A DNA stretch of 64,000 nucleotides from Halobacteriovorax sp. GB3 (GTDB taxonomy: Bacteria; Bdellovibrionota; Bacteriovoracia; Bacteriovoracales; Bacteriovoracaceae): positions 248,001 through 312,000 of the forward strand of contig NZ_JAQSLN010000003.1 of NCBI RefSeq assembly GCF_028649655.1, given 5' to 3'. Position 1 is the stretch's first letter. Every line of letters begins with the position of its first letter. Below are positions 17,018-64,000 of the stretch, in pieces. Below the pieces are notes generated by a model, which saw only the letters and a list, made by a program, of their open reading frames with translations, was not told the origin of the DNA and did not search any database. The position numbers and the translations under genes are program-made.

Positions 17018-18499
17018 ATGACCAAAAGACATGGAGTTCTTCTCGTTTTACTACTAACCCTCTTCTCTTGTGGAAAAAAGGACCACACGGAAAACTCGGC
17101 AAAACTAATGAATTCAAGCATCATTATTGGAAGCTTGGATTGGAAAGAAGTGACGACCCTCTTAGAGACAGATATTAAAAGAGTAAAGTCAAAGGCCGTG
17201 GCCACAATCGATCTGCCCGCTATGGGTTCACGTTGTACAGGTTTTCTTATTAGTGAAGATCTCCTTATGACAAATCATCACTGCATTCCAACACCGGCCC
17301 ACGCAAGTGGTGTAACGGCAACATTTAATCGCTTACACGGCGTTTCTGCAACAGAGTACATCCCCTATGATTGTTCTGAATTTGTTCTTAACAATCAGGC
17401 ATTGGATTTTGCAATTCTTCGCTGTACGAGTTCACCTGGTCTTGAATACAACACAGTAGAGTTAGCAACACAAGAAGTCTCTGTTGGAGAGCCAATCTAT
17501 GTCGTTCAACAAAATTGCGATTACTACAATCAACGCTCTTGTAACTGGACAAAGAAATTTAGCGAAGGACAAATCACAGAAGTTGCATCGATCTACGCCC
17601 ACAATGCCGACACACTTGGAGGAAGCTCAGGAAGCCCTGTTCTAAGTCAAAATTCAAATACTGTTGTCTCAATTCATAATGCAGGATCAGGTAATAATGG
17701 TATGGGTCGAGGCTTTATGAACTACAGTGTGCCAATGAGCAAAATCACAAGTTTTCTTCAAAGCGCACACCCAGATATATATGCACAGATAATAAGTGAT
17801 GATGCAGATACTGATCCCAGGCCAAGTGAACCAACAGATCCAAGCGATCAAAGCAACACATCAATGAGTAGTGCTCTTGTTCTTACCAAAGAAAGAGAAA
17901 CTCATTCAATGAGTATCAACTCGAGTGGAGAAAAACGCTACTTCAAAATGATTATTACTGGGCCAACACCCCTGGAGGCCACTCTTTCATTCACTCATTC
18001 CCAAGGTGATCTCGACTTGGCCCTCGTTAGTGAAAGTGGCGAGAAGATTAAGGTTTCACAAGGAACAAAAGATAGTGAATCAATTTCAAATGAACTCGAA
18101 GCTGGGACATACTTCTTAGTTGTCTACGGCTACTCTAGTGCAACTGGAAAATTTAGCTTAACAACAAAAGTTGAAACTCAAAATCCGACAAGTAACGACA
18201 CGATGGAAAGCGCTAAAAAAATAAAATCTCCATCTATAACAAGCGCGAGCATAGAATCAGGAGTTGATCTCTACTACAAAGTTGATATAGGGATTAGTGC
18301 CAATGCTACTTTAGAATTTGTTCATGCCAATGGCGACTTAGATCTCTTCGCGCTTGATGCAGCAGGAAATGTGGTAAGAAAAAGTGAGGGAATTAAAAAT
18401 ACAGAGTCTATTACCCTTACGCGCTCATCTAATATTCGCTACCTCGTCGTCAAAGGATACAACGGAGCAGCAGGTGATTTCAAGCTATCATTAAATTAA
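17018..18499 (+). CDS. Trypsin-like serine protease lipoprotein with two PPC domains
   Basis: Envelope-anchored S1-type protease of 493 residues. The signal ends in lipobox LFSC (C18). The catalytic domain (about 50-260) has H88 in TNHHC, D130 in ALDFAIL and S204 in GGSSGSP; cysteines flank the pocket as in bacterial trypsin-like enzymes. After an Asp/Ser/Pro-rich linker (about 262-285) come two copies of a roughly 100-residue beta domain with GDLDLAL and GDLDLFA motifs, matching bacterial pre-peptidase C-terminal (PPC) domains, which bind or present substrate and are often removed on maturation. Expected outside or in the periplasm. Monocistronic, followed by a terminator. Confidence 0.87.
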   Translation: MTKRHGVLLVLLLTLFSCGKKDHTENSAKLMNSSIIIGSLDWKEVTTLLETDIKRVKSKAVATIDLPAMGSRCTGFLISEDLLMTNHHCIPTPAHASGVTATFNRLHGVSATEYIPYDCSEFVLNNQALDFAILRCTSSPGLEYNTVELATQEVSVGEPIYVVQQNCDYYNQRSCNWTKKFSEGQITEVASIYAHNADTLGGSSGSPVLSQNSNTVVSIHNAGSGNNGMGRGFMNYSVPMSKITSFLQSAHPDIYAQIISDDADTDPRPSEPTDPSDQSNTSMSSALVLTKERETHSMSINSSGEKRYFKMIITGPTPLEATLSFTHSQGDLDLALVSESGEKIKVSQGTKDSESISNELEAGTYFLVVYGYSSATGKFSLTTKVETQNPTSNDTMESAKKIKSPSITSASIESGVDLYYKVDIGISANATLEFVHANGDLDLFALDAAGNVVRKSEGIKNTESITLTRSSNIRYLVVKGYNGAAGDFKLSLN

Positions 18500-18500
18500 A

Positions 18501-18525
18501 AAAAGGCTCCCAATGGGAGCCTTTT
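18501..18525. terminator. Bidirectional terminator
   Basis: AAAAGGCTCCC / GGGAGCCTTTT with a two-base loop, symmetrical A and T tracts. It serves the protease gene on the plus strand and the small membrane protein gene on the minus strand. Confidence 0.9.
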
Positions 18526-18711
18526 CTAATCTTTGATGACAGTATATTCAGCTTCAAAAACATCCGACTGATTAGCATTCTTATAACCATTCTTTGGCCC
18601 AGGTGTCGTTTTTTCAAAAGTTTTAGACAGGAGATAATAGCGAACACCATAACGGATGAGACGATAGATACAATAGAAAATAACAAACTTTACAAGACCT
18701 GCAAGAAACAT
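18526..18711 (-). CDS. Small membrane protein, unknown function
   Basis: 61 residues: one hydrophobic N-terminal segment (about residues 3-20), a basic stretch, then a soluble tail ending DVFEAEYTVIKD. The tail resembles the ends of small DUF4834-type membrane proteins, but I cannot confirm this by eye. A very good ribosome site (AAGGAG six bases before the ATG) and a terminator at the end support a real gene. It lies 50 bases downstream of the FAD oxygenase gene and may be the last, weakly linked member of that operon. Confidence 0.65.
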   Translation of the reverse strand: MFLAGLVKFVIFYCIYRLIRYGVRYYLLSKTFEKTTPGPKNGYKNANQSDVFEAEYTVIKD

Positions 18712-18761: not shown

Positions 18762-19850
18762 TTAGGAAAATTGACGCTTCAAATAAGTATAAAACATCGA
18801 AATCTTTGAGAAAAAGAGTTCGCCAAGAAGACTTGTGCGAGAATAATTAGAAGAGAAAAAGAGCATAAACTCACAGCCTAACCTATAAATAAAAATGTTT
18901 AATGAGCTTAAAAAAAGATAGCTTAAAAGACTTCTTGAGCCAGTTAAATGACTTGCAAGAGAGCGCGCCTGAGAGAGACCTAAACTAACGCCTTCACCAG
19001 TGATCCCATCTTTAAATTGACAAGCATCACCGACAAAGTAAACCCCCTCTTTTCTAAGGACAGGAGACCTGCTTAGAGGGCCAAGAACTTTGAAATCTAA
19101 GAGTGATCTTCTCGAGTTCAGACCTAGTCCTAGTCTCAAAAACTCATGTTCAAATAATTGATAGAGTGATTCTTTATTCTTTAAAAATTCTTTGTGATTC
19201 GCATTTTCTTGATGCCAAAGAAAACAGAATTCAACTTGATCCTTCGATACAGGAGTTAAATAACATTCAATCTGCTCATGATAAAACACGTGAACCCGCC
19301 CTAGTTCTTTTTCAACGACAAAATGCTCTCTTGCACCAAATCGCTTTAAAGATGATTTATTCAAAACCCCAAGTAGGCGTCTCATACTTGAATTAATTCC
19401 ATCGGCAGCGATAAGTTGATGATAAGTAATCTCTCTTATCCTCTGATCTTGACTAATTTTTATTTTCTTAGAATGTAGATCAACACTTCTTACAAGTGAG
19501 GATTCAAGAAGTGTCACTCCCATTAATCTTGCTTTTAAGTACAATTCATTTGAAAGATCACTTCTTTTAATTCCCCTAAATTTTGATCCGGCCTTTAAAA
19601 GAAAATCTCTTTCTTTAAAATGAATTTGTATTCCTTCAAGACTAAGACCAAGATTTTTTATTCCAACTTCCTCTAAACACGAAACACCTTTTGGAAGAAG
19701 TCCTTGGCCACAAACTTTATCCTTTGGCCATGAGCTCTTCTCGATGACACAGACACTTTGGTTGGGAGACAAAGTCTTTATATAAATTGAAAGATAAAGC
19801 CCAACAGGACCCCCTCCAACAATGACAATCAAATTAGGATCGCTTGTCAT
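18762..19850 (-). CDS. FAD-dependent oxidoreductase / monooxygenase (geranylgeranyl-reductase-like group)
   Basis: 362 residues with the flavoprotein aromatic hydroxylase layout: dinucleotide-binding VIVGGGPVGLYL at the N-terminus (about 9-20), IEKSSWPKDKVCGQGLLPKG (a C-G-x-G block like those of geranylgeranyl reductases and related oxygenases), LIAADGINSSMRRLLG (the DG motif) in the middle and YFVGDACQFKDGITGEGV (second FAD motif, GD) near residue 270. In this operon, with a type III polyketide synthase and an ICMT-family methyltransferase, its best guess is hydroxylation of a phenolic lipid, as for SrsC in Streptomyces. Overlaps the FAAL gene by 17 bases, so co-translated. Reduction of an isoprenoid chain is an alternative. 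Confidence 0.8.
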   Translation of the reverse strand: MTSDPNLIVIVGGGPVGLYLSIYIKTLSPNQSVCVIEKSSWPKDKVCGQGLLPKGVSCLEEVGIKNLGLSLEGIQIHFKERDFLLKAGSKFRGIKRSDLSNELYLKARLMGVTLLESSLVRSVDLHSKKIKISQDQRIREITYHQLIAADGINSSMRRLLGVLNKSSLKRFGAREHFVVEKELGRVHVFYHEQIECYLTPVSKDQVEFCFLWHQENANHKEFLKNKESLYQLFEHEFLRLGLGLNSRRSLLDFKVLGPLSRSPVLRKEGVYFVGDACQFKDGITGEGVSLGLSQARSLASHLTGSRSLLSYLFLSSLNIFIYRLGCEFMLFFSSNYSRTSLLGELFFSKISMFYTYLKRQFS

Positions 19851-21564
19851 AGGCCATCTTCTTTTTTAATGGATAAAATACAAAGAGTTTAAAAAGGGCA
19901 ATATACTTAGAAAAGAAATCTACAACGGGCCCTCCTTCTAACGATAAATACTTTCCACTCTCATAAAGCTCCTTGGCCTTTACACGCATAAGCTTGCCTG
20001 AACTTGTACGAGGAAGAGAAGATTTTTTAAAGACGTGAATTTCACTAACTGTCAGTGCCACTTCTTTTAGAACATCTTTTTTTATTTCATTTTTTAAGTT
20101 CGAAAGACCCTTGTCACTCATGGAATGAGCTTGTTCTAGAAAGACAATAATTTCTTCGCTGTCTTTTTGATTCTTTGTTGAGCTGAAGGCCATCACAGTT
20201 CCTTCACGAACACCAGGAATCTTCGAAGCTACTTGCTCGATTTCTACAGGATCTATATTGCGACCGTTAATAATGAGGACTTCTTTTTTCCTCCCTAAAA
20301 TAAAGAGTTCTCCCTCATAGAGAAGGCCAAAGTCACCTGTTCTAATTCTCCCAAACGAGTCGCGCTTTACATTTGCACACATTGAACTTCCAAAAAAGGC
20401 CACCTCGCCAACATGAGCTTCACCAAGAGACTCTCCACAATCATCTAAGATCTCTATTTGAGTTCCTTCCACCGGAAATCCAACACTAAATAGCTCTCGT
20501 CCATGATCAGTAGCGATGGCGATTTTATCAACTTTAAGGGCGGCCTCATCAAAGTACTTTGCTTTGGCTACAGAGCTTGCCTTAGAAAATGTCGCAGCAA
20601 GAGTATTTTCGGCAAGTCCATAAACGGGAGTAAAGGCGAGCTCACTCAGTCCGTATGGAGAAAAAAAACGATAAAACTTAGAATAGGTTTCATTGCTTAT
20701 ATGCTCGGCCCCACACATGAGAACGCGAAGGCTAGACAGGTCGACTCCCTCATAATCACTTTCTTTAAATCGTTTTGAAAGAAGACCAAGCGAAAAATTA
20801 GGCGCCACACTGACAGTGGCCTTCATTTTAGAGATGGCCTTAAACCAAAGTGAGGGGCAGGCCAAAAACTGAGAAGGTTCAATAAGTGTGAGAGAAGCCT
20901 TTGCATAGATGGCACAAAGAAAACCACCAACAAGGCCCATATCATGGTACAAAGGGAGCCAACTCACGCAACTCTCGCTCGTTCCTTCCTTAATATTAAG
21001 CGCTTTAATAATGGCCTTAATATTGGCATAAAGAGCAGAAAATGGAATTTCAATTGGTCTAGGACTTCCGGTTGAGCCAGAAGAGAATTGAATAAAGGCG
21101 ATTTCCTTATCATTAATTTCAATTTCTTTAAGAGAAAAAGAGCTAGGATAAGATTCAAACGAATCAATCTCTTTTAAAGACACTGAAAAATGCTCAATAG
21201 GCAATGAATTACCCGTCATTTTTAAAATATCGTGCAAGATGAGAAAACGGGCGTCTACTTCTTTCAAACAGTGCTTCGTTTTTTCTAGCCAAAAATCAAT
21301 TTTTCCTAGCCTAATAGGAGGATAAAGAAAAGTTGGAGTGGCGCCGATCTTCCAAAGAGCAAAGAAAGTCGCAACAAGTTCTAGACTAGTTGGGAACATC
21401 AAAGCGACAACATCACCTTTTTTAATTCCCCTATTTTTAAAATCTGTCTCCAAGTAATGAATCGACTGAATAAGACTAGAATAAGAGTAGGAATTGACGC
21501 CTTTTTTAGAATAAAAGTGAATTTTTCGCTCATTGTCTTTATGCCAATTTAGTATAGAGAACAT
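19834..21564 (-). CDS. Fatty acyl-AMP ligase (FAAL)
   Basis: Adenylates a fatty acid and passes it to a carrier protein instead of CoA. 576 residues. Adenylate-forming motif FSSGSTGSPRP at 160-170, then SWLPLYHDMGLVGG (201-214), a sequence characteristic of FAAL rather than fatty acyl-CoA ligases, YGLAENTLAATFS, RTGDFG and LGRKKEVLIINGRN. The FAAL-specific insertion is not something I can score by eye. The next gene upstream (12 bases) is a stand-alone ACP, the obvious acceptor. It probably primes the type III polyketide synthase of the same operon with a long acyl chain. Overlap with the FAD oxygenase gene supports one transcript. Confidence 0.88.
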   Translation of the reverse strand: MFSILNWHKDNERKIHFYSKKGVNSYSYSSLIQSIHYLETDFKNRGIKKGDVVALMFPTSLELVATFFALWKIGATPTFLYPPIRLGKIDFWLEKTKHCLKEVDARFLILHDILKMTGNSLPIEHFSVSLKEIDSFESYPSSFSLKEIEINDKEIAFIQFSSGSTGSPRPIEIPFSALYANIKAIIKALNIKEGTSESCVSWLPLYHDMGLVGGFLCAIYAKASLTLIEPSQFLACPSLWFKAISKMKATVSVAPNFSLGLLSKRFKESDYEGVDLSSLRVLMCGAEHISNETYSKFYRFFSPYGLSELAFTPVYGLAENTLAATFSKASSVAKAKYFDEAALKVDKIAIATDHGRELFSVGFPVEGTQIEILDDCGESLGEAHVGEVAFFGSSMCANVKRDSFGRIRTGDFGLLYEGELFILGRKKEVLIINGRNIDPVEIEQVASKIPGVREGTVMAFSSTKNQKDSEEIIVFLEQAHSMSDKGLSNLKNEIKKDVLKEVALTVSEIHVFKKSSLPRTSSGKLMRVKAKELYESGKYLSLEGGPVVDFFSKYIALFKLFVFYPLKKKMAYDKRS

Positions 21565-21575
21565 GACAGGCCCTT

Positions 21576-21815
21576 TTAAATCGATTTTTTTATTAAACTA
21601 ACAATATCTCCCACCGTTTGCGGTGGATCGAAGGTATCTTCAATTACCATTTGAAAGTGATTTTCTAGGGAGCTTAAAAGAGTGAGTTGATTAATCGAAT
21701 CTAAAAAAAGATCATCAATGAGTTTTGATTGCTTAGAAATCTCTAAACTGCTATCAACGAGACACTCGTTCTTTAAAATCTTTTCTACAATATTAAAAAT
21801 TTCAGTTTCGCTCAT
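21576..21815 (-). CDS. Stand-alone acyl carrier protein
   Basis: 79 residues, helical, with the phosphopantetheine site in LFLDSINQLTLLSSLENHF (S40). The residue after the Ser is Ile, not the Leu/Met of housekeeping AcpP, and the net acidic character is milder, so this is a specialised ACP. It sits between the ICMT-family gene (four-base overlap) and the FAAL gene, and very probably carries the activated fatty acid to the polyketide synthase. Confidence 0.85.
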   Translation of the reverse strand: MSETEIFNIVEKILKNECLVDSSLEISKQSKLIDDLFLDSINQLTLLSSLENHFQMVIEDTFDPPQTVGDIVSLIKKSI

Positions 21816-22366
21816 GAAGGATTTCCTTTTCCATTATAGAGACTTGCTCTTTCATAATATAATTTATTTTCCACACTGATTCTATGAAAGACAAAGAAGA
21901 GATTTAAAAGCGAAAAGACACCTGCAGTAAAATAGAGTTCAAAGGCCAGTGGAAGGGCAACAAACTCTAAAATGACACCTAAATAATTAGGATGGCGAAT
22001 AACTTTATAGACACCACTAGCAATGGGCATCGCCCCTTTCATATCGATTACCTTAGTACACCATCTCCCCTTTAATTCAGTAATGGCCAGATAGCGAAAG
22101 AGTTGACCAAGAAAAAAGAAAAAGATAAATGGTGCAAAAATAACGATATCGAATTGAACGACTTTCATATTGAATTCGACTAGAAGAGAAACAAACCAAA
22201 GGGTATGCAGGGCCATCATAAAAGGAATATCCTTTTTATAAATCACCTCCCCTCCACTTGCGATCATCGATTTCTCATTTTTCTTTGATAAACGTAATTC
22301 AAATAATCTTTGAATCACTGTGGCAAGGAAGATGACATAAAATAGAACGATCATGAATCTCTCCAA
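21812..22366 (-). CDS. ICMT-family membrane methyltransferase
   Basis: 184 residues with four to five membrane segments. The C-terminal SAM-binding block GVYKVIRHPNYLGVILEFVA with a later E-N-K (SVENKLYYERA) is the isoprenylcysteine carboxyl methyltransferase / phospholipid methyltransferase pattern (RHPxYxG ... E). Bacterial members next to type III polyketide synthases O-methylate phenolic lipids (SrsB in Streptomyces griseus). It overlaps the polyketide synthase gene by 16 bases and the ACP gene by four, tying all three together. The product would be an alkylresorcinol methyl ether or similar; that is inference. Confidence 0.85.
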   Translation of the reverse strand: MERFMIVLFYVIFLATVIQRLFELRLSKKNEKSMIASGGEVIYKKDIPFMMALHTLWFVSLLVEFNMKVVQFDIVIFAPFIFFFFLGQLFRYLAITELKGRWCTKVIDMKGAMPIASGVYKVIRHPNYLGVILEFVALPLAFELYFTAGVFSLLNLFFVFHRISVENKLYYERASLYNGKGNPS

Positions 22367-23421
22367 ATAAAATGAGACAGCTCAACACAAAAGGCCGGCC
22401 CCATAGCAAGAGCAAGACAGTCTTCTCCATCATTTTTAACTGAGCGAGAAAAGAATTCTTTAAGAACAAATAAAACGGAAACAGAACTAAGATTGCCATA
22501 TTCTTTTAATGTTTCATAACTCAGGCACAAAGCTTCCTGAGAAAGTCCCAGTCCCTCAACAAGTGCCCCAAGAACCTTTGGACCTCCAGGGTGAGCAATA
22601 TAGTGGCGAATCTGATCCTTTGAAAGATTTTGATCAATTAAAAACTCATTTACCACAGGAGGGACCATTTCTTTAGAGATCGTAGGAACATCACTACTTA
22701 AAACAACTTTCATTCCTGAGTTTACAAAGTCCCATCCCATCACTCTTTCAGTATCAGAAAAGACCTCACTTCTCGATCCTTGGTAATCAAGCCCTGGGCG
22801 ATTTGCCAGAGGGTGTTCGTCACCGACAACTAAAACACAAGCGAGTCCATCTCCAAAGAGACCACTTGAAATGATATTGGCCATACTCAAGTCTTCTTTT
22901 TGCATTGTTAAACTGCAAAACTCGATTGAAAGAAAAAGGGCCGCACTCTTAGGTGATCCTTTTAAGAAATCACATACTCTGTTTAAACCAGCTATTCCCG
23001 CCAAACAACCTAATCCAAAGATTGGTAGACGAATCGTACTTCTTTTTAGACCAATCTCATTTATGATGATTGATTCAATCGAAGGAACACTTAATCCCGT
23101 TACACTATTGCTACAAAAGAGATCGATAGAATCAGTATCAACGCCAGAATTTTCAATGAGCTTAGTAACAAGTTTTGGTGCAAGCCTTCTAGCAGCTTCT
23201 TGCCAAGCATTGTTCTTATCTTCAAAAGTATCGAGAGTTTTATATCTTGATAGTTCAACAGGAAAATAGCGCTTTCCCACACTAGTATTTTCAAAGATCT
23301 TTTCAATCCGATCGAGATTAAAATACTTCTCTTTCCAAAGATCTTTTAAAACATCGAAGACTTCTTTTTGATCGTATTCGTGTTCACTTAAAAGAGTTTC
23401 CACATGGATTATTTTTGGCAT
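22351..23421 (-). CDS. Type III polyketide synthase
   Basis: Chalcone/stilbene-synthase-fold enzyme, 356 residues, normal for the family. The catalytic triad is visible: C139 in FGLGCLAGIAGL, H277 in YIAHPGGPKVL and N310 in YGNLSSVSVLFVL. The C-terminal AMGPAFCVEL corresponds to the family's GFGPG loop. It would extend a fatty acyl starter with malonyl-CoA and cyclise to an alkylresorcinol or alkylpyrone. It lies nine bases after a YceI gene and overlaps the ICMT-family gene. A methyltransferase, FAD oxygenase, ACP and FAAL follow on the same strand. The ring type cannot be decided from sequence. Confidence 0.92.
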   Translation of the reverse strand: MPKIIHVETLLSEHEYDQKEVFDVLKDLWKEKYFNLDRIEKIFENTSVGKRYFPVELSRYKTLDTFEDKNNAWQEAARRLAPKLVTKLIENSGVDTDSIDLFCSNSVTGLSVPSIESIIINEIGLKRSTIRLPIFGLGCLAGIAGLNRVCDFLKGSPKSAALFLSIEFCSLTMQKEDLSMANIISSGLFGDGLACVLVVGDEHPLANRPGLDYQGSRSEVFSDTERVMGWDFVNSGMKVVLSSDVPTISKEMVPPVVNEFLIDQNLSKDQIRHYIAHPGGPKVLGALVEGLGLSQEALCLSYETLKEYGNLSSVSVLFVLKEFFSRSVKNDGEDCLALAMGPAFCVELSHFIWRDS

Positions 23422-23430
23422 AATTTCCTC

Positions 23431-24012
23431 TTAATGTTGAAAGTGAAATCTAATTGTAATTTCATCAGAAAGTTTAGCTACGGCAATACTAGGGTCTGGA
23501 ATGGAAAGTTCTTTTAAGCTAAAGAGTCCCGATCCAGAAATTTCATAACGTCCTTTTTCAAGTTCATTTATTTTAAGAGTCAATTTAACTCTTTTTGACT
23601 CTCCCCTTATGTTGAGAGTCCCCTCAACTATGTGCTCTTTCCCATTAAAAAGAACCTCATCCGTGATAACAAGACTAATCGTTGGATGATCTTTTTTTGC
23701 CAGACAAAAGTTATGCAATTTTTCATCGCGACTTTCACTATTAGTGTCCATCATCTCGACGGGAAATTCAACTTTCATATTCTTAGAAGAAATTAGATCT
23801 CCCCTTTTTGAAATGACTGCCTCAGTGTTAAATTTTTTAACATGACCGATAACCTTATCAGACCAAAGACCTATTTTAGTTGAGACGACTTGAAACTCTA
23901 GAAAATTAGAACTCTCTTTCGCCTTTTCAAAATCTTTGAATTCATATTCTTTCGCACTCGTCCCTAGACAAAGGAGAACAATCCCAAATGACAAGAAAAT
24001 TATATTTTTCAT
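23431..24012 (-). CDS. YceI-family periplasmic lipid-binding protein
   Basis: 193 residues with a signal peptide (MKNIIFLSFGIVLLCLGTSA). The mature part has YceI features: F-x-V-x-x-T/S start (LEFQVVSTKIG), alternating beta strands, a D/E-rich SRDEKLHNF helix region, the VEGTLNIRGESKRVKLTL strand pair and a late SGSGLFSLKELSIPDPS segment. YceI proteins form a lipocalin-like barrel that holds polyisoprenoid or fatty compounds. Being inside the phenolic-lipid operon, it may carry the product or a quinone across the periplasm. The start is ATG 24012 with AGAGGAG upstream; the longer frame to 24033 is unlikely. Four-base overlap with the preceding methyltransferase gene. Confidence 0.87.
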   Translation of the reverse strand: MKNIIFLSFGIVLLCLGTSAKEYEFKDFEKAKESSNFLEFQVVSTKIGLWSDKVIGHVKKFNTEAVISKRGDLISSKNMKVEFPVEMMDTNSESRDEKLHNFCLAKKDHPTISLVITDEVLFNGKEHIVEGTLNIRGESKRVKLTLKINELEKGRYEISGSGLFSLKELSIPDPSIAVAKLSDEITIRFHFQH

Positions 24013-24806
24013 AAACGCTCCTCTACCTTCCATTTTAAAGGAAAGACTTTTGAAATTTCATTGTAAAAAGGAATCATCGAGACTTCTTTTTTGTATTCTT
24101 GAAAAAGTTTCGACTTTTGCAATCTCTTTTCTTTAAGAAGCATCCCTACATAAAGATAAACACTCCAATAAACGCTTAAAATTAATTGATCCAAGCTCAT
24201 TGAAGGTCTAATCCAAATCATTAGAAAAAATGATATCAAAATTGGATGTCTCATATAGCGATAAGGACCTTGAAAGGGCTTAATTTTTTCATAATTTTTC
24301 TTAAAGACGTAACTTGTCCACTGAGCGATACCAGCATGGTGAAAAAGTCCAGAAAAATGCAGTGATACACCCATAAAAAGCCAACTCAACAACATAAAGA
24401 AGATCACTATGACTTGGCCTGGGCCAAAGTGAAAATTCCAAACCATTGCTGAGCTCGAATTCCAAAAGAAATACATTAAAATAAGGGTACTCGTTGCATG
24501 AAAACTATAAACACTCATAAATATTTTAGCTGGAAAAATTTTAGCAACCCACTTTCTTGGCCCTTTCTCCAAGAGCAGGCTGTGGGGAAGAGTAAAGAGT
24601 GTCAAAAGAGACAGATTCACAATCCACTGTCTACTACTTAGAACACCTTGATTCATCCAAGGTAATAGTTGATTCAAAAAGAGAAAAAGACCTGCGATGG
24701 CAACGAAGTAGAAGGCCGTAACAAGGAGACCAAAAATAAAGATGAGAGCTCGCCCTGAAATGAGTGCACGCTTTTGATTTTTGCTCTTTTCTATTGTTTG
24801 ACTCAT
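24009..24806 (-). CDS. MddA/NnrU-like membrane methyltransferase
   Basis: 265 residues with about six membrane segments. After an N-terminal pair of segments it shows HSLLLEKGPRKW and PAKIFMSVYSFHATSTLIL, then GPYRYMRHPILISFF and a late K-E-K-R-L/Y-K-K-E tail, the order seen in NnrU and methanethiol S-methyltransferase (MddA) proteins of the ICMT superfamily. The start is ATG 24806 with GGAGAAA upstream; a longer frame to 24833 lacks one. First gene of the polyketide operon, so it may methylate an intermediate, giving two membrane methyltransferases in the pathway. Thiol methylation is an alternative. The substrate is not determinable here. Confidence 0.72.
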   Translation of the reverse strand: MSQTIEKSKNQKRALISGRALIFIFGLLVTAFYFVAIAGLFLFLNQLLPWMNQGVLSSRQWIVNLSLLTLFTLPHSLLLEKGPRKWVAKIFPAKIFMSVYSFHATSTLILMYFFWNSSSAMVWNFHFGPGQVIVIFFMLLSWLFMGVSLHFSGLFHHAGIAQWTSYVFKKNYEKIKPFQGPYRYMRHPILISFFLMIWIRPSMSLDQLILSVYWSVYLYVGMLLKEKRLQKSKLFQEYKKEVSMIPFYNEISKVFPLKWKVEERL

Positions 24807-24933
24807 GATTTTCTCCTTCACTAGAGATATCATCGCAAATAAAGATGAATTTTCGCTAATCCCAAGATGAAGATTTGATGAAATCTAAAAAACCTTATGT
24901 TTTCAAGGTGATATATAATGGTAAACTATCTTT

Positions 24934-25620
24934 ATGAAACTTTTAATTATTGAAGATCAGGAAAAATTGGCCCATTTTCTCATAAAAGGGCTCAAAGAAG
25001 AAGGCCACGTCGTTGAATATGCTCCCGATGGAGCGAAGGCCATTGAATTTACAAAAACCCATCAATTTGATGTGATTATCAGTGATATTATGATGCCCTA
25101 CATCGATGGTATGACATTTCTAAGCTCTCTTAGAAGTTATGATAAGAAAACGCCAGTTCTCTTTTTAACGGCAAAAGATGATATCGATAGCAAGTTGAAG
25201 GCCTTTAGAGAGGGAGGTGATGATTACCTAACCAAGCCCTTTGCCTTTGAAGAATTGCTGGTTCGTATCGAGGCCCTCGCTAGAAGATCGATTAACGATA
25301 TTAGTGAAAAAAGAGAAGAACAATACCTTGTTCACGATAATCTGAAAGTTAGTATTGATTCACATAAAGTCTATTTGAATGAAGAGATCATTGAATTAAC
25401 AAAAACTGAATTTGATTTACTCGTTTATTTACTTCAAAGAATTAACAAAGTCGTTACACGCTCTCAATTTCTTGAAAATGTAAAAGGCTACAATTTTGAT
25501 AGCGCCACCAATATTGTCGATGTTCATATAAAATCACTTCGTAAGAAGATTGATCAGGGAAGAGAGAACTCCCACATCAAAACGATTCGCGGCTTAGGCT
25601 ATATGATCGAGCAGGATTAA
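24934..25620 (+). CDS. OmpR-family response regulator
   Basis: 228 residues: receiver domain with acidic pair IIEDQ, phospho-acceptor D51 in ISDIMMPY, Thr in FLTAKD and K101 in LTKPFAF, then a winged-helix DNA-binding domain (about 130-226) ending KTIRGLGYMIEQD. It is divergent from the phenolic-lipid operon across about 127 bases and is followed six bases later by its probable partner kinase. The geometry makes the operon a natural target, but no binding site was identified. Confidence 0.92.
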   Translation: MKLLIIEDQEKLAHFLIKGLKEEGHVVEYAPDGAKAIEFTKTHQFDVIISDIMMPYIDGMTFLSSLRSYDKKTPVLFLTAKDDIDSKLKAFREGGDDYLTKPFAFEELLVRIEALARRSINDISEKREEQYLVHDNLKVSIDSHKVYLNEEIIELTKTEFDLLVYLLQRINKVVTRSQFLENVKGYNFDSATNIVDVHIKSLRKKIDQGRENSHIKTIRGLGYMIEQD

Positions 25621-25625
25621 TACTT

Positions 25626-27353
25626 ATGCGAAAACTTCAGCTTTTTATTTACTCACTTATTCTCTTCATTATCTTCTATGGCATCAAGCACTATGGCCAT
25701 ATTAATGAAGCCAGTATTCAAGCAGAGTTTTATCGTGAAAATTATAAAAAGCTCATTCTCACCCGCTCCCAGATAGAAAGACACTTCGAACACATCTATC
25801 TTGGACTTAGATCAATTAGTGTCTCACTAAACTCCCCTTCAGAAGTTAAATATCGAAAAGAGCTCTATGAGAGTCTCTATGCTAATCTTGAAGAGAAGAC
25901 GAAAATTTCTGAAATGTACTACACTCCCGTTTCTACCGATTTCAATCAATGGGATGATTCGACAAAGCTTCCTCGAGGTATCGTTAAATTTGAAAACGAA
26001 CAACACCACGAGCACGAAGAAAAGGCCCACAAAAGCGATCACGGTAGCAGTGAAGTTGAAATCTACGAAATGAATGACATAAAAAAGCAATTGTCATTTT
26101 TTAAAGAAAAATTCCCAAAGTCTAACTCCTTTGAAAAACTCGACTACCCTGCAACCAGTGGAGATGAACTCATCACTTGTGACAATACTAAGAGTGAGAG
26201 CCCCCATTTTGATAAAATTAGAACAGATGATCGTCTCGGTATTATCTACTCAATTCCAACTTATGATAAACGAGGTGAACTTCATGGAATTTTATCGGCA
26301 GTCATTAAAATAGACTCCCTTATAAAAATCTTTGATGGACCATTTTTCACTCTTACACGACCTGATTCTTCGTTTAATCTCGATTTAACTAAGCTTGGAC
26401 AATGGTCAAAAAAAGAAGAGCAGTATTTTTTCTATACCGACAAAGTTAATATCCACGACAATCGCCCATGGCACCTAGAAATGAAAATTCCAATGACCAT
26501 CTATCAAAAATCTCCTTTTTACAAAGAGATTAAGCGCGGAGAGCATATAAAGATTGTCTTTGCCGTTGGCATTTCCATTCTCTTTGTCATTACCTTCTTT
26601 TTACGATCGGGAATCGAACAGCAGCGCGATCTCAATAAAGAACTACAAGAAGAAATAGAAAAAAGGCGCCAATCCGAAGAACGCCTCGCTCAATTTACAA
26701 GTGATGCCTCTCACGAACTTCGAAGCCCTCTGGCCGCTATTCGCGGCGAGGCCGAAGTTGCCCTTCGAAAGGATCGCCAAGCACAAGAGTACAAAGAAAC
26801 CATTCAACAAAATCTCGAGAGTGCTATAGAGCTTCAAGAAATTCTCGATCATCTGATGATGCTTGCCCGCTTTGACAAAAATAAGGCCAGTGAAAATCTA
26901 GAGACTCTTCATGCAAAAACTATTTTTGATGAACTCAATTCCATTTATCAAACACAATTGGAAGATAGGTTTCATTTTGAAGGCGACAATATTAATTTTC
27001 TAGGCCACGAGAAATCTCTTTATATGGCCTTTAAAAATATTATTGAAAATGCCATCAAATATGCTGGTCCCGAGTGCCAACTGACTATGACATGTAAAAA
27101 ATCAAATGGAACAATCAATTTTAGTTTTGTTGATAATGGTCAAGGAATGAGTGAAGAAGTTCTCTCCAAGGCCATCGATCGATTTTATCGAGATGACAAG
27201 ACAAAACATTTGGCCAAAGGATTTGGACTAGGCCTTAGTCTTGTCCACAAAATCGCAAAAAGTCACGACGGGAATCTTGTTCTTAAGAACTCTACGCCAA
27301 AGGGGCTCATTGTCGAGCTTACAATTAGAGATTACTTACATTCACAGAGCTAG
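25626..27353 (+). CDS. Sensor histidine kinase with His-rich periplasmic loop
   Basis: 575 residues. Two membrane segments (about 6-20 and 303-325) flank a 280-residue periplasmic sensor region that contains a His cluster at H127, H128, H130, H135 and H139 amid Glu and Lys, suggestive of divalent metal binding. A short coiled linker (EIEKRRQSEERL) leads to the HisKA box with H363 in DASHELRSPL. The ATPase domain has N-box IIENAIKYA, G1 VDNGQGMS and G2 GFGLGLSLV. It is complete and should be active. Pairs with the regulator encoded immediately upstream. The signal is unknown; metal sensing is inference. Confidence 0.9.
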   Translation: MRKLQLFIYSLILFIIFYGIKHYGHINEASIQAEFYRENYKKLILTRSQIERHFEHIYLGLRSISVSLNSPSEVKYRKELYESLYANLEEKTKISEMYYTPVSTDFNQWDDSTKLPRGIVKFENEQHHEHEEKAHKSDHGSSEVEIYEMNDIKKQLSFFKEKFPKSNSFEKLDYPATSGDELITCDNTKSESPHFDKIRTDDRLGIIYSIPTYDKRGELHGILSAVIKIDSLIKIFDGPFFTLTRPDSSFNLDLTKLGQWSKKEEQYFFYTDKVNIHDNRPWHLEMKIPMTIYQKSPFYKEIKRGEHIKIVFAVGISILFVITFFLRSGIEQQRDLNKELQEEIEKRRQSEERLAQFTSDASHELRSPLAAIRGEAEVALRKDRQAQEYKETIQQNLESAIELQEILDHLMMLARFDKNKASENLETLHAKTIFDELNSIYQTQLEDRFHFEGDNINFLGHEKSLYMAFKNIIENAIKYAGPECQLTMTCKKSNGTINFSFVDNGQGMSEEVLSKAIDRFYRDDKTKHLAKGFGLGLSLVHKIAKSHDGNLVLKNSTPKGLIVELTIRDYLHSQS

Positions 27354-44692: not shown

Positions 44693-46159
44693 TTAGCAAA
44701 ACTCTCTACCTTTGGCCCGCTCTTTTAAACTAACACGGTCGATCTTGCCGTTGGCAAGTAATGGAAATTCCGAGAGTTTTTCAATTGTATGAGGATGTTT
44801 GTAACGAGAGAGTTTATCGCCTAAAAACTTACGAAGTTCATCGATTGAAAGATCTCTCTTAGATTTTAAATAGGCATGTCCGACCTCTCCCCACTTGTCA
44901 CTGGCCTTTGAAACGACAACGGCATCAAGAATACTTGGGTGTGAGAGAAGTTGTTTTTCAACTTCTGCAGGATAGACATTTTCTCCTCCAGAGATATACA
45001 TATCTTTGATTCGACCAACGACATAGAAAAAGCCATCTTCATCAAATTTAACGAGATCCCCCGTCTTAAAGTAACCAAGATAGAGGCTTTCGTGCCACTT
45101 TCTAGAGTCGCGGTAATAGCCTAAACAGAGATGATCTCCTTTAATCAATAATTCGCCTATCACGTGTGGTTCGGTTACGATCTTCTCATCTTTCATGACA
45201 ATCACTTTAGAGTGCTTCATCGCTTGGCCAATTGAACCAAGTTTTGAAACTGAAAACTCTTCAGAAAGTTCAAAGCAATTAGGGCCAACTTCAGTAAGGC
45301 CAAAACCTTGTTTAAAACCAAGATTTTTTTCCTGATACTTTTTAATCATCTCAATAGGTGCTGCGGCACCTCCAGAGAGGAAGAATCGTATTGAACTAAA
45401 ATCGGCCGTCTTAAAAGCAGCAGACTCTTGTAGCATTTGAAACATTGTCGGCACACCAAAATACACTGACAATCTCTTTTGTGTGATTGTTTCGATGACA
45501 TTTGAAATATCAAATTTTGGCGCAATATAACAAGTTCCCCCAACAAAAAGTAAGGGCAAAAGTAAAACATTATATCCACCTGTATGAAAAAATGGTGTTT
45601 CAACTAGTGTCGAGTCATTGTGATCTAATTGCCAATTTCTACATGTTTCAATTTGATTGGTTTTTAGCATGCGCCCATGAAAGAGAACACCCTTGGGGCG
45701 ACCTGTTGAGCCAGAAGTAAAGAGCATGAGAATAGGATCTTCATCTAAGGCATATTTTTTTATCAATAATCCCTTTAATTCGAGATCGATATCACTTAGT
45801 AAAACTTTTTTCGTATGAACAATGAGATTCGTTTTTTCTCTACTGATAAAAATCTTGCAATCAATTCTATCTAAAGTGTCTTGCAACTCCCCTTGCGAGA
45901 GACGAAAATTCAAAGGAACAAAGAGAGCGCGAATTTTAGCACAGGCCAAGAGTATAAGAACGTGTTCAAGACAATTTGTTGCCAAAAAAGCAACTCGATC
46001 ACCGTCGCTTACATTTTGTGATTGTAAATAGAGGGCCCACTTATCGACGATCGCATTTAATTGCTCATATGTATAAGAACGATTTGACTCTTGCTCGATT
46101 ATGGCCTCTTTTTTGGCGTAGGTCTTTGCATTCTCTTCCAAGAAATGTATCCAATTCAT
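44693..46159 (-). CDS. Acyl-CoA synthetase (AMP-forming)
   Basis: 488-residue adenylate-forming ligase: P-loop LMLFTSGSTGRPKGVLF (about 156-172), A5-type GFGLTEVGPN, A7 KTGDLVKFDEDGFFYVVGR, A8 KDMYISGGENVYPAEVE and catalytic Lys in LANGKIDR near the end, so both half-domains are present. Length matches short/medium-chain or MenE-like ligases. It lies between an alpha/beta hydrolase and the PHB depolymerase gene, suggesting activation of a 3-hydroxy, beta-keto or fatty acid to CoA. OSB-CoA ligase (MenE), missing from the men cluster, is an alternative I consider less likely from context. Confidence 0.87.
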   Translation of the reverse strand: MNWIHFLEENAKTYAKKEAIIEQESNRSYTYEQLNAIVDKWALYLQSQNVSDGDRVAFLATNCLEHVLILLACAKIRALFVPLNFRLSQGELQDTLDRIDCKIFISREKTNLIVHTKKVLLSDIDLELKGLLIKKYALDEDPILMLFTSGSTGRPKGVLFHGRMLKTNQIETCRNWQLDHNDSTLVETPFFHTGGYNVLLLPLLFVGGTCYIAPKFDISNVIETITQKRLSVYFGVPTMFQMLQESAAFKTADFSSIRFFLSGGAAAPIEMIKKYQEKNLGFKQGFGLTEVGPNCFELSEEFSVSKLGSIGQAMKHSKVIVMKDEKIVTEPHVIGELLIKGDHLCLGYYRDSRKWHESLYLGYFKTGDLVKFDEDGFFYVVGRIKDMYISGGENVYPAEVEKQLLSHPSILDAVVVSKASDKWGEVGHAYLKSKRDLSIDELRKFLGDKLSRYKHPHTIEKLSEFPLLANGKIDRVSLKERAKGREFC

Positions 46160-63829: not shown

Positions 63830-64000
63830 TAACTCACCTTCTCACTAAAAACCTCATTAACATCCTTAACAAGGAAACTTGGAAAAATGAAAAGATCAAA
63901 GATAGCGCCCAAAAAGATGATAATGGCCAGATTGAGTCCAAACTCGCCAATAGGAACAAAAGAATTAGAACCAATCAACAAGAAACAAAGTACCAAAACA
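63829..64000 (-). CDS. RND/MMPL-type transporter, C-terminal end (5' part outside window)
   Basis: 57 codons are visible, ending at TAA 63831-63829. The peptide has two hydrophobic segments (VLVLCFLLIG and NLAIIIFLGAIFDLFIFPSF) and a short charged tail (LVKDVNEVFSEKVS). The second segment with its A-x-F-D-L-x-x-x-P-S pattern matches the last membrane helix of RND-superfamily (MMPL-type) exporters. The call is tentative because so little is visible. Its stop overlaps the tilS start. Confidence 0.5.
   Translation of the reverse strand, partial: VLVLCFLLIGSNSFVPIGEFGLNLAIIIFLGAIFDLFIFPSFLVKDVNEVFSEKVS

Follow-up and report, generated by a model that had tools for sequence, protein, structure and literature searches.

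A seven-gene type III polyketide synthase operon of Halobacteriovorax sp. GB3 and its predicted phenolic lipid product

What would a bacterium make with an operon in which a type III polyketide synthase (PKS) is accompanied by a fatty acyl-AMP ligase (FAAL), a discrete acyl carrier protein (ACP), a YceI-family protein, a flavoprotein and two membrane methyltransferases? The question is raised by a locus of Halobacteriovorax sp. GB3, found in a stretch of 64,000 nucleotides (contig NZ_JAQSLN010000003.1, positions 248,001 to 312,000), which we call the window and in whose coordinates positions are given unless another locus is named. The organism belongs to the Bacteriovoracaceae, and its kinship suggests a predatory lifestyle. 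From gene content and conservation, we regard a long-chain phenolic lipid as the likely product of the operon. This lipid is probably an alkylresorcinol, O-methylated and then oxidised to an alkylbenzoquinone.

The operon and its enzymes

The ORF listing of the window contains seven minus-strand ORFs at 24833-18762, with gaps of no more than 11 bases where neighbours do not overlap, exactly as described in the initial annotation of this DNA. The annotation gave the extent of the operon as 18762-24806, which is right as to place, but the longest ORF of gene 1 begins at 24833, and 24806 would be an internal start. Stop and start codons overlap as ATGA at three junctions (methyltransferase-1/YceI, PKS/ICMT and ICMT/ACP), YceI and PKS are separated by 9 bases and ACP and FAAL by 11 bases, and the FAAL and flavoprotein genes overlap by 17 bases. 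A strong palindromic terminator-like site (18501-18525) is present between the operon and the convergent downstream gene. The family assignments proposed for the seven genes were all upheld by Pfam, NCBIfam and PDB matches, and the curated Pfam cut-offs were passed for FAD_binding_3, AMP-binding, ICMT, chalcone/stilbene synthase, YceI and NnrU. No decay is apparent from the sequences, the active-site motifs being intact in the PKS, FAAL, ACP, ICMT and flavoprotein, and the gene block can hardly be due to chance, because subsets of it recur beside a homologous PKS in dozens of genomes.

Gene 3 (22351-23421, on the minus strand, as are all seven) codes for a type III PKS of the FtpA/Pks11 type. 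Its best PDB match is Pks11 of Mycobacterium tuberculosis (4jao, E 4.6e-65), which is named an alpha-pyrone synthase. Both the N- and C-terminal chalcone synthase domains are above the Pfam cut-off, and the Cys-His-Asn triad is intact, as had been proposed, and corresponds to C139/H277/N310. The protein also has W230, and PMC5916927 reports a Trp conserved in the resorcinol-forming FtpA, SrsA, PKS10 and PKS11. The predicted product is an alkylresorcinol, an alkylresorcylic acid or an alkylpyrone. The sequence is about 43-44% identical to those of myxobacterial PKSs. Among the closest PKSs outside the phylum is that of the planctomycete Candidatus Uabimicrobium amorphum (about 50% identity), which belongs to a gene set (L071:7962-12886) of the type of the Myxococcus xanthus ftp locus discussed below.

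Gene 5 (21576-21815) encodes the ACP, which scores 18.8 bits against Pfam, slightly below the cut-off of 20.8, and 44 bits against the NCBIfam ACP model. The phosphopantetheine site D39-S40 is kept, and L38-D39-S40 is invariant across an alignment with ftp-type ACPs. The product of gene 6 (19834-21564) has EcFAAL as best PDB match (3pbk, E 7.3e-65), and its motifs are intact (SSGSTG161, YGLAE315, TGD409 and PRTSSGK518), in line with the expectation that neither the FAAL nor the PKS active site would be degraded on alignment. A FAAL-specific insertion of about 30 residues follows the YGLAE motif; it is found in ftp-type FAALs too, and two acyl ligases encoded by this genome do not have it. The window codes for a second AMP-forming acyl ligase (44696-46159, minus strand), which is without the insertion and served as comparator; besides gene 6, no FAAL was found in the genome. 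Because of this insertion and of the Myxococcus ftp precedent, we expect that the FAAL loads acyl-AMP onto the holo-ACP of its own operon and not onto CoA. A single phosphopantetheinyl transferase-like match is present in the whole genome (G000:C1:897602-897757, PF01648, 26 bits, partial), so that all carrier proteins may depend on one enzyme for their charging. A scan of viral sequences with the FAAL gave no match.

Of the two membrane methyltransferases, the one encoded by gene 4 (21812-22354) belongs to the ICMT family of O-methyltransferases (Pfam ICMT, 73.6 bits) and occupies an SrsB-like position. Its true start is probably the ATG at 22354, slightly inside the longest ORF (22366-21812, starting with TTG), and the HPNY motif and the C-terminal E162 are invariant with the ICMTs of myxobacterial and Streptomyces neighbourhoods. 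Gene 1 (24009-24833) encodes a polytopic membrane methyltransferase-like protein of 274 aa from the NnrU/MddA family (Pfam NnrU, 32.4 bits, cut-off 24.7), which scores 99 bits against the NCBIfam MddA model, under the cut-off of 270, and is a relative rather than a member of MddA. Its RHP motif is kept, with R195 and P197 invariant in the alignment and E235 and R237 almost so. A fold search with its AlphaFold model (pLDDT 86) gave SRD5A and ICMT among the top matches, none of which was significant.

Gene 7 (18762-19850), in an SrsC-like position, encodes a FAD-dependent hydroxylase of the aromatic monooxygenase superfamily (FAD_binding_3, 43.4 bits), with profile matches to CmlS, VisC, PHBH and others. 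The FAD motifs are kept (GxGxxG at 12 and GD at 274), and the protein can be aligned as one family with the flavoproteins adjoining Streptomyces and Myxococcus PKSs. The remaining gene, gene 2 (23431-24012), encodes a YceI-family lipid-binding protein (Pfam YceI, 54.5 bits, cut-off 23.7) with an N-terminal signal peptide, residues 1-22 being hydrophobic. It probably starts at the ATG at 24012, slightly inside the longest ORF (24033-23431), and this ATG is preceded by AGGAG.

Two gene sets combined in one operon

A PKS match (E up to 1e-10) was obtained in 153 of 369 genomes of the Bdellovibrionota. The surroundings were read for about 65 loci, with gene calls in the relatives taken as simple ORFs; the neighbour counts hinge on a distance of 6.5 kb and on profile thresholds, and contig ends hide neighbours (the G075 contig is cut within the FAAL gene). 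None of the 41 comparable loci, in which the PKS is flanked by 5 kb or more on either side, carries all seven genes together. The seven are not conserved as one block; there are two five-gene orders, each of them conserved, whose union is found in the window alone.

The first order, methyltransferase-1, YceI, PKS, ICMT and flavoprotein, is shared in content by nine loci besides the window, and eight of them, including one in G002, the sole further genome of this genus in the set, have exactly this order; in L046 the order of the five is different. The window has ACP and FAAL inserted between ICMT and flavoprotein, a pair which, among the loci read in the phylum, is limited to the window, G057, G075, G039 and G040. 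For 29 FtpA-like loci flanked by 5 kb on either side, the neighbours include an ICMT (25 loci), an MMPL-type transporter weakly similar to HpnN and about 670 aa long (23), a flavoprotein (22), a YceI (21), a LuxR-type regulator of the LIC13292 family (17), an NnrU-type methyltransferase (6) and ACP with FAAL (3).

The second order is the one found outside the phylum. A scan of genome contigs with the single PKS protein gave no match; an alignment query gave matches, and 70 of its best 80 loci are from outside the Bdellovibrionota. PKS, ICMT, ACP and FAAL stand together in 31 of these 70, mostly with a flavoprotein, and chiefly in Myxococcota (Corallococcus, Myxococcus), Acidobacteriota and Planctomycetota, including Candidatus Uabimicrobium. 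The order PKS-ICMT-ACP-FAAL-FAD is the same in the window and in the Corallococcus, Myxococcus and Uabimicrobium loci. The Streptomyces loci have PKS-ICMT-flavoprotein, which is the srs/PkQ arrangement (PMC9927152). At four Planctomycetota-type loci a YceI and an NnrU-like protein precede the PKS, with a soluble methyltransferase between in L115, and these four resemble the published operon of 'Saltatorellus ferox' (PMC10896814).

Each set has counterparts in known systems. The ftp locus of Myxococcus xanthus and its counterpart in bacterium Mor1 (PMC5006271) have, like the window, a type III PKS, an ICMT-type methyltransferase, an ACP, a FAAL and a FAD monooxygenase, whereas the myxobacterial loci were without an NnrU-like gene and a YceI in the search made. 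In ftp, the FAAL is reported to feed the type III PKS, and FtpA to make alkylresorcylic acid (Hayashi et al. 2011, ChemBioChem 12:2166). The five-gene operon of 'Saltatorellus ferox' (2024, PMC10896814) resembles the window in having a gene for a lipid/isoprenoid-binding protein and two methyltransferase genes beside that of a type III PKS, which makes alkylresorcinols, some with an extra methyl; it has no ACP-FAAL, and in a planctomycete relative the extra methyltransferase, unlike that of the window, is a soluble class I enzyme. The srsABC operon of Streptomyces griseus and the PkQ operon of Mycobacterium smegmatis, which yield phenolic lipid quinones (PMC9927152), share the PKS-methyltransferase-FAD hydroxylase core, but use an acyl-CoA starter and have no ACP, FAAL, YceI or second methyltransferase. 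The cyanobacterial hierridin genes hidABC and their planctomycete counterparts also combine a methyltransferase, an oxidoreductase and a type III PKS, the product being a hydroxylated, O-methylated alkylresorcinol (PMC10896814); they comprise three genes only, without FAAL-ACP or YceI.

The initial annotation considered the FAAL-ACP step and YceI to go beyond the srs scheme. Both are indeed absent from it, but each has a precedent, in Myxococcus (2011) and in 'Saltatorellus ferox' (2024), respectively. The proposed route, in which a fatty acid passes through FAAL, ACP and PKS and is then methylated and hydroxylated to give a phenolic lipid or quinone, agrees with sequence and synteny, but is not new as such. 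New is the union of the ftp-type and methyltransferase-YceI sets in one operon, together with the phylum-wide YceI-PKS link, the ICMT-YceI fusion, the MMPL partner and the recurrent regulators; our literature search returned no paper describing any of these last four, and a T3PKS cluster is mentioned in one Bdellovibrio genome report. These findings suggest that the phenolic-lipid pathway recurs among Bacteriovoracaceae and related lineages, as a trait apparently undescribed in the literature searched.

The origin of the combination was addressed with trees. The FAALs of Bdellovibrionota form one clade (support 97) beside Uabimicrobium, in a sample made up only of FAALs adjoining type III PKSs, and the window flavoprotein groups with those of the phylum's five-gene operons (95 for the set of 11); the PKS and ICMT trees leave the matter undecided. 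Retention of an old ACP-FAAL pair is, for these reasons, at least as likely as a recent mosaic, in which an ftp cluster was pasted into a five-gene operon. We infer a Bdellovibrionota five-gene operon that kept, or once gained, an ftp-type ACP-FAAL pair. The simplest history would have an ftp-like set with ACP-FAAL early, and the pair then lost in most lineages.

Proposed pathway and competing readings

The chemistry and the order of steps that we infer would be as follows. The FAAL would adenylate a free long-chain fatty acid and load it onto the operon's own ACP, from which the PKS would take the acyl chain, add three malonyl or methylmalonyl units and close the ring of a resorcinol or resorcylic acid. 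O-methylation of this ring would fall to the ICMT-family enzyme, the flavoprotein would hydroxylate it, leading to a hydroquinone or quinone, and the NnrU/MddA-like product of gene 1 would perhaps add a second methyl group. The hydrophobic product would then be bound by the periplasmic YceI and carried across the envelope by an MMPL/HpnN-like pump. A methylmalonyl-CoA mutase is present in the genome, and therefore methyl-branched products, as with FtpA, are possible.

Several points weigh against this assignment. The type of ring is not certain, since members of this PKS family also produce alkylpyrones, and the second methylation is weakly based, given the sub-cut-off MddA score and the non-significant fold search of gene 1. 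The PKS and ICMT trees have little resolution around the window, the ligands of YceI proteins vary, and the MMPL gene of the window is about 39 kb from the operon, not adjacent to it. No metabolite is known from the organism or its genus, and we found no paper linking Bacteriovorax to a type III PKS product.

The same chemistry could also serve respiration, rather than membrane structure or attack, if the product were a polyketide quinone acting as an alternative electron carrier at low oxygen, for example inside prey. This role has precedents in Mycobacterium smegmatis and Streptomyces, with PkQs reported as active in hypoxic respiration (PMC9927152 and PMC5916927). The operon contains the srs/PkQ core of PKS, methyltransferase and oxidoreductase, and the adjoining two-component system suggests conditional expression. 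We nevertheless regard a respiratory role as possible but doubtful, as the recurrence of YceI and of the MMPL/HpnN-like pump in the phylum points to envelope export.

It is rather unlikely that the product is instead an alkylpyrone or alkylresorcylic acid, decorated by the flavoprotein and the methyltransferases, and not a quinone. The name of the closest solved relative and the reported FtpA product (Hayashi 2011) are consistent with such a compound, as are some Bdellovibrionota loci that have PKS and ICMT with no flavoprotein nearby, but the Trp reported to be kept in resorcinol formers is present (W230), and the srs set is complete in the window, both ICMT and hydroxylase being there.

YceI, export and regulation

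The operon could also be read as two unrelated units that simply adjoin, an ftp-type biosynthetic unit and, upstream of it, an envelope pair of NnrU-like protein and YceI. Such a reading would fit the many contexts of the NnrU and YceI families and the ftp units outside the phylum, which are mostly without both, but it is highly improbable given that 31 of the 41 comparable Bdellovibrionota loci have a YceI close to the PKS, in several orders, that YceI is fused to ICMT in six of the loci read, and that YceI, an NnrU-like protein and PKS also occur together in Planctomycetota. The fusions are single ORFs that match both the ICMT and the YceI profiles (L052, L057, L058, L061, L155 and L156), with both domains confirmed by Pfam in L052 and L057. 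Because of them, there is good sequence evidence that YceI acts on what the methyltransferase uses or produces. YceI, a family with few known partners, gains in this way a concrete candidate ligand, polyketide lipids, and the fusions together with the MMPL linkage make this proposal directly testable.

The exporter and the linked regulators were missed in the initial list of partners, which comprised the seven genes. At the end of the window, the end of an MMPL/HpnN-like transporter gene is found (63832-64000, minus strand), which continues to G000:C3:313916 (L174:7833-9917). It scores 578 bits against the profile of operon-linked MMPL proteins and is 36% identical to the MMPL protein beside the operon of G045, for which the next best match in the genome has 64 bits. 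It is likely to be the orthologue of the exporter that adjoins the operon in relatives. The gene sits between those of a LysR-type regulator and a TilS-like protein.

More tentatively, and with less confidence than for the phenolic lipid itself, one may picture a synthesis and export line for phenolic lipid quinones, widespread among the Bdellovibrionota and with a dedicated regulator, in which YceI would receive the product directly from the membrane methyltransferase, as suggested by the ICMT-YceI fusions, and pass it to the MMPL pump, the lipid ending in the envelope of predator or prey. In predators, a phenolic lipid or a quinone could matter for the envelope, for respiration within the prey or for attack; an effect on prey membranes is speculation.

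Divergent to the operon are genes for an OmpR-type response regulator (24934-25620, plus strand) and a paired sensor histidine kinase with HisKA and HATPase_c domains (25626-27353, plus strand). Among six relatives, the response regulator has its clearly best match in G057 (47%, E 2.3e-60, against 8.4e-36 for the next), where it lies some 4 kb upstream of the PKS, and a homologue of the kinase (250 bits), which aligns over the full length including the sensor part, is also beside the G057 operon. Because both homologues adjoin that operon, the two-component system is a probable regulator of the window operon. The sensor part of the kinase contains a His-rich stretch, QHHEHEEKAHKSDHG, which is shorter and less His-rich in the G057 homologue and possibly binds metal. 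The LuxR-type regulator recurrent in the phylum is not beside the window operon.

Downstream of the flavoprotein gene, a short ORF of 61 aa (18526-18711, minus strand), which has a good ribosome-binding site, precedes the terminator; it had one weak match in 58 relatives and was set aside as a functional member of the operon. The convergent gene (17018-18499, plus strand) encodes a putative secreted serine protease of the trypsin-like type, which has a lipoprotein-like signal and, at the C-terminal end, repeat domains.

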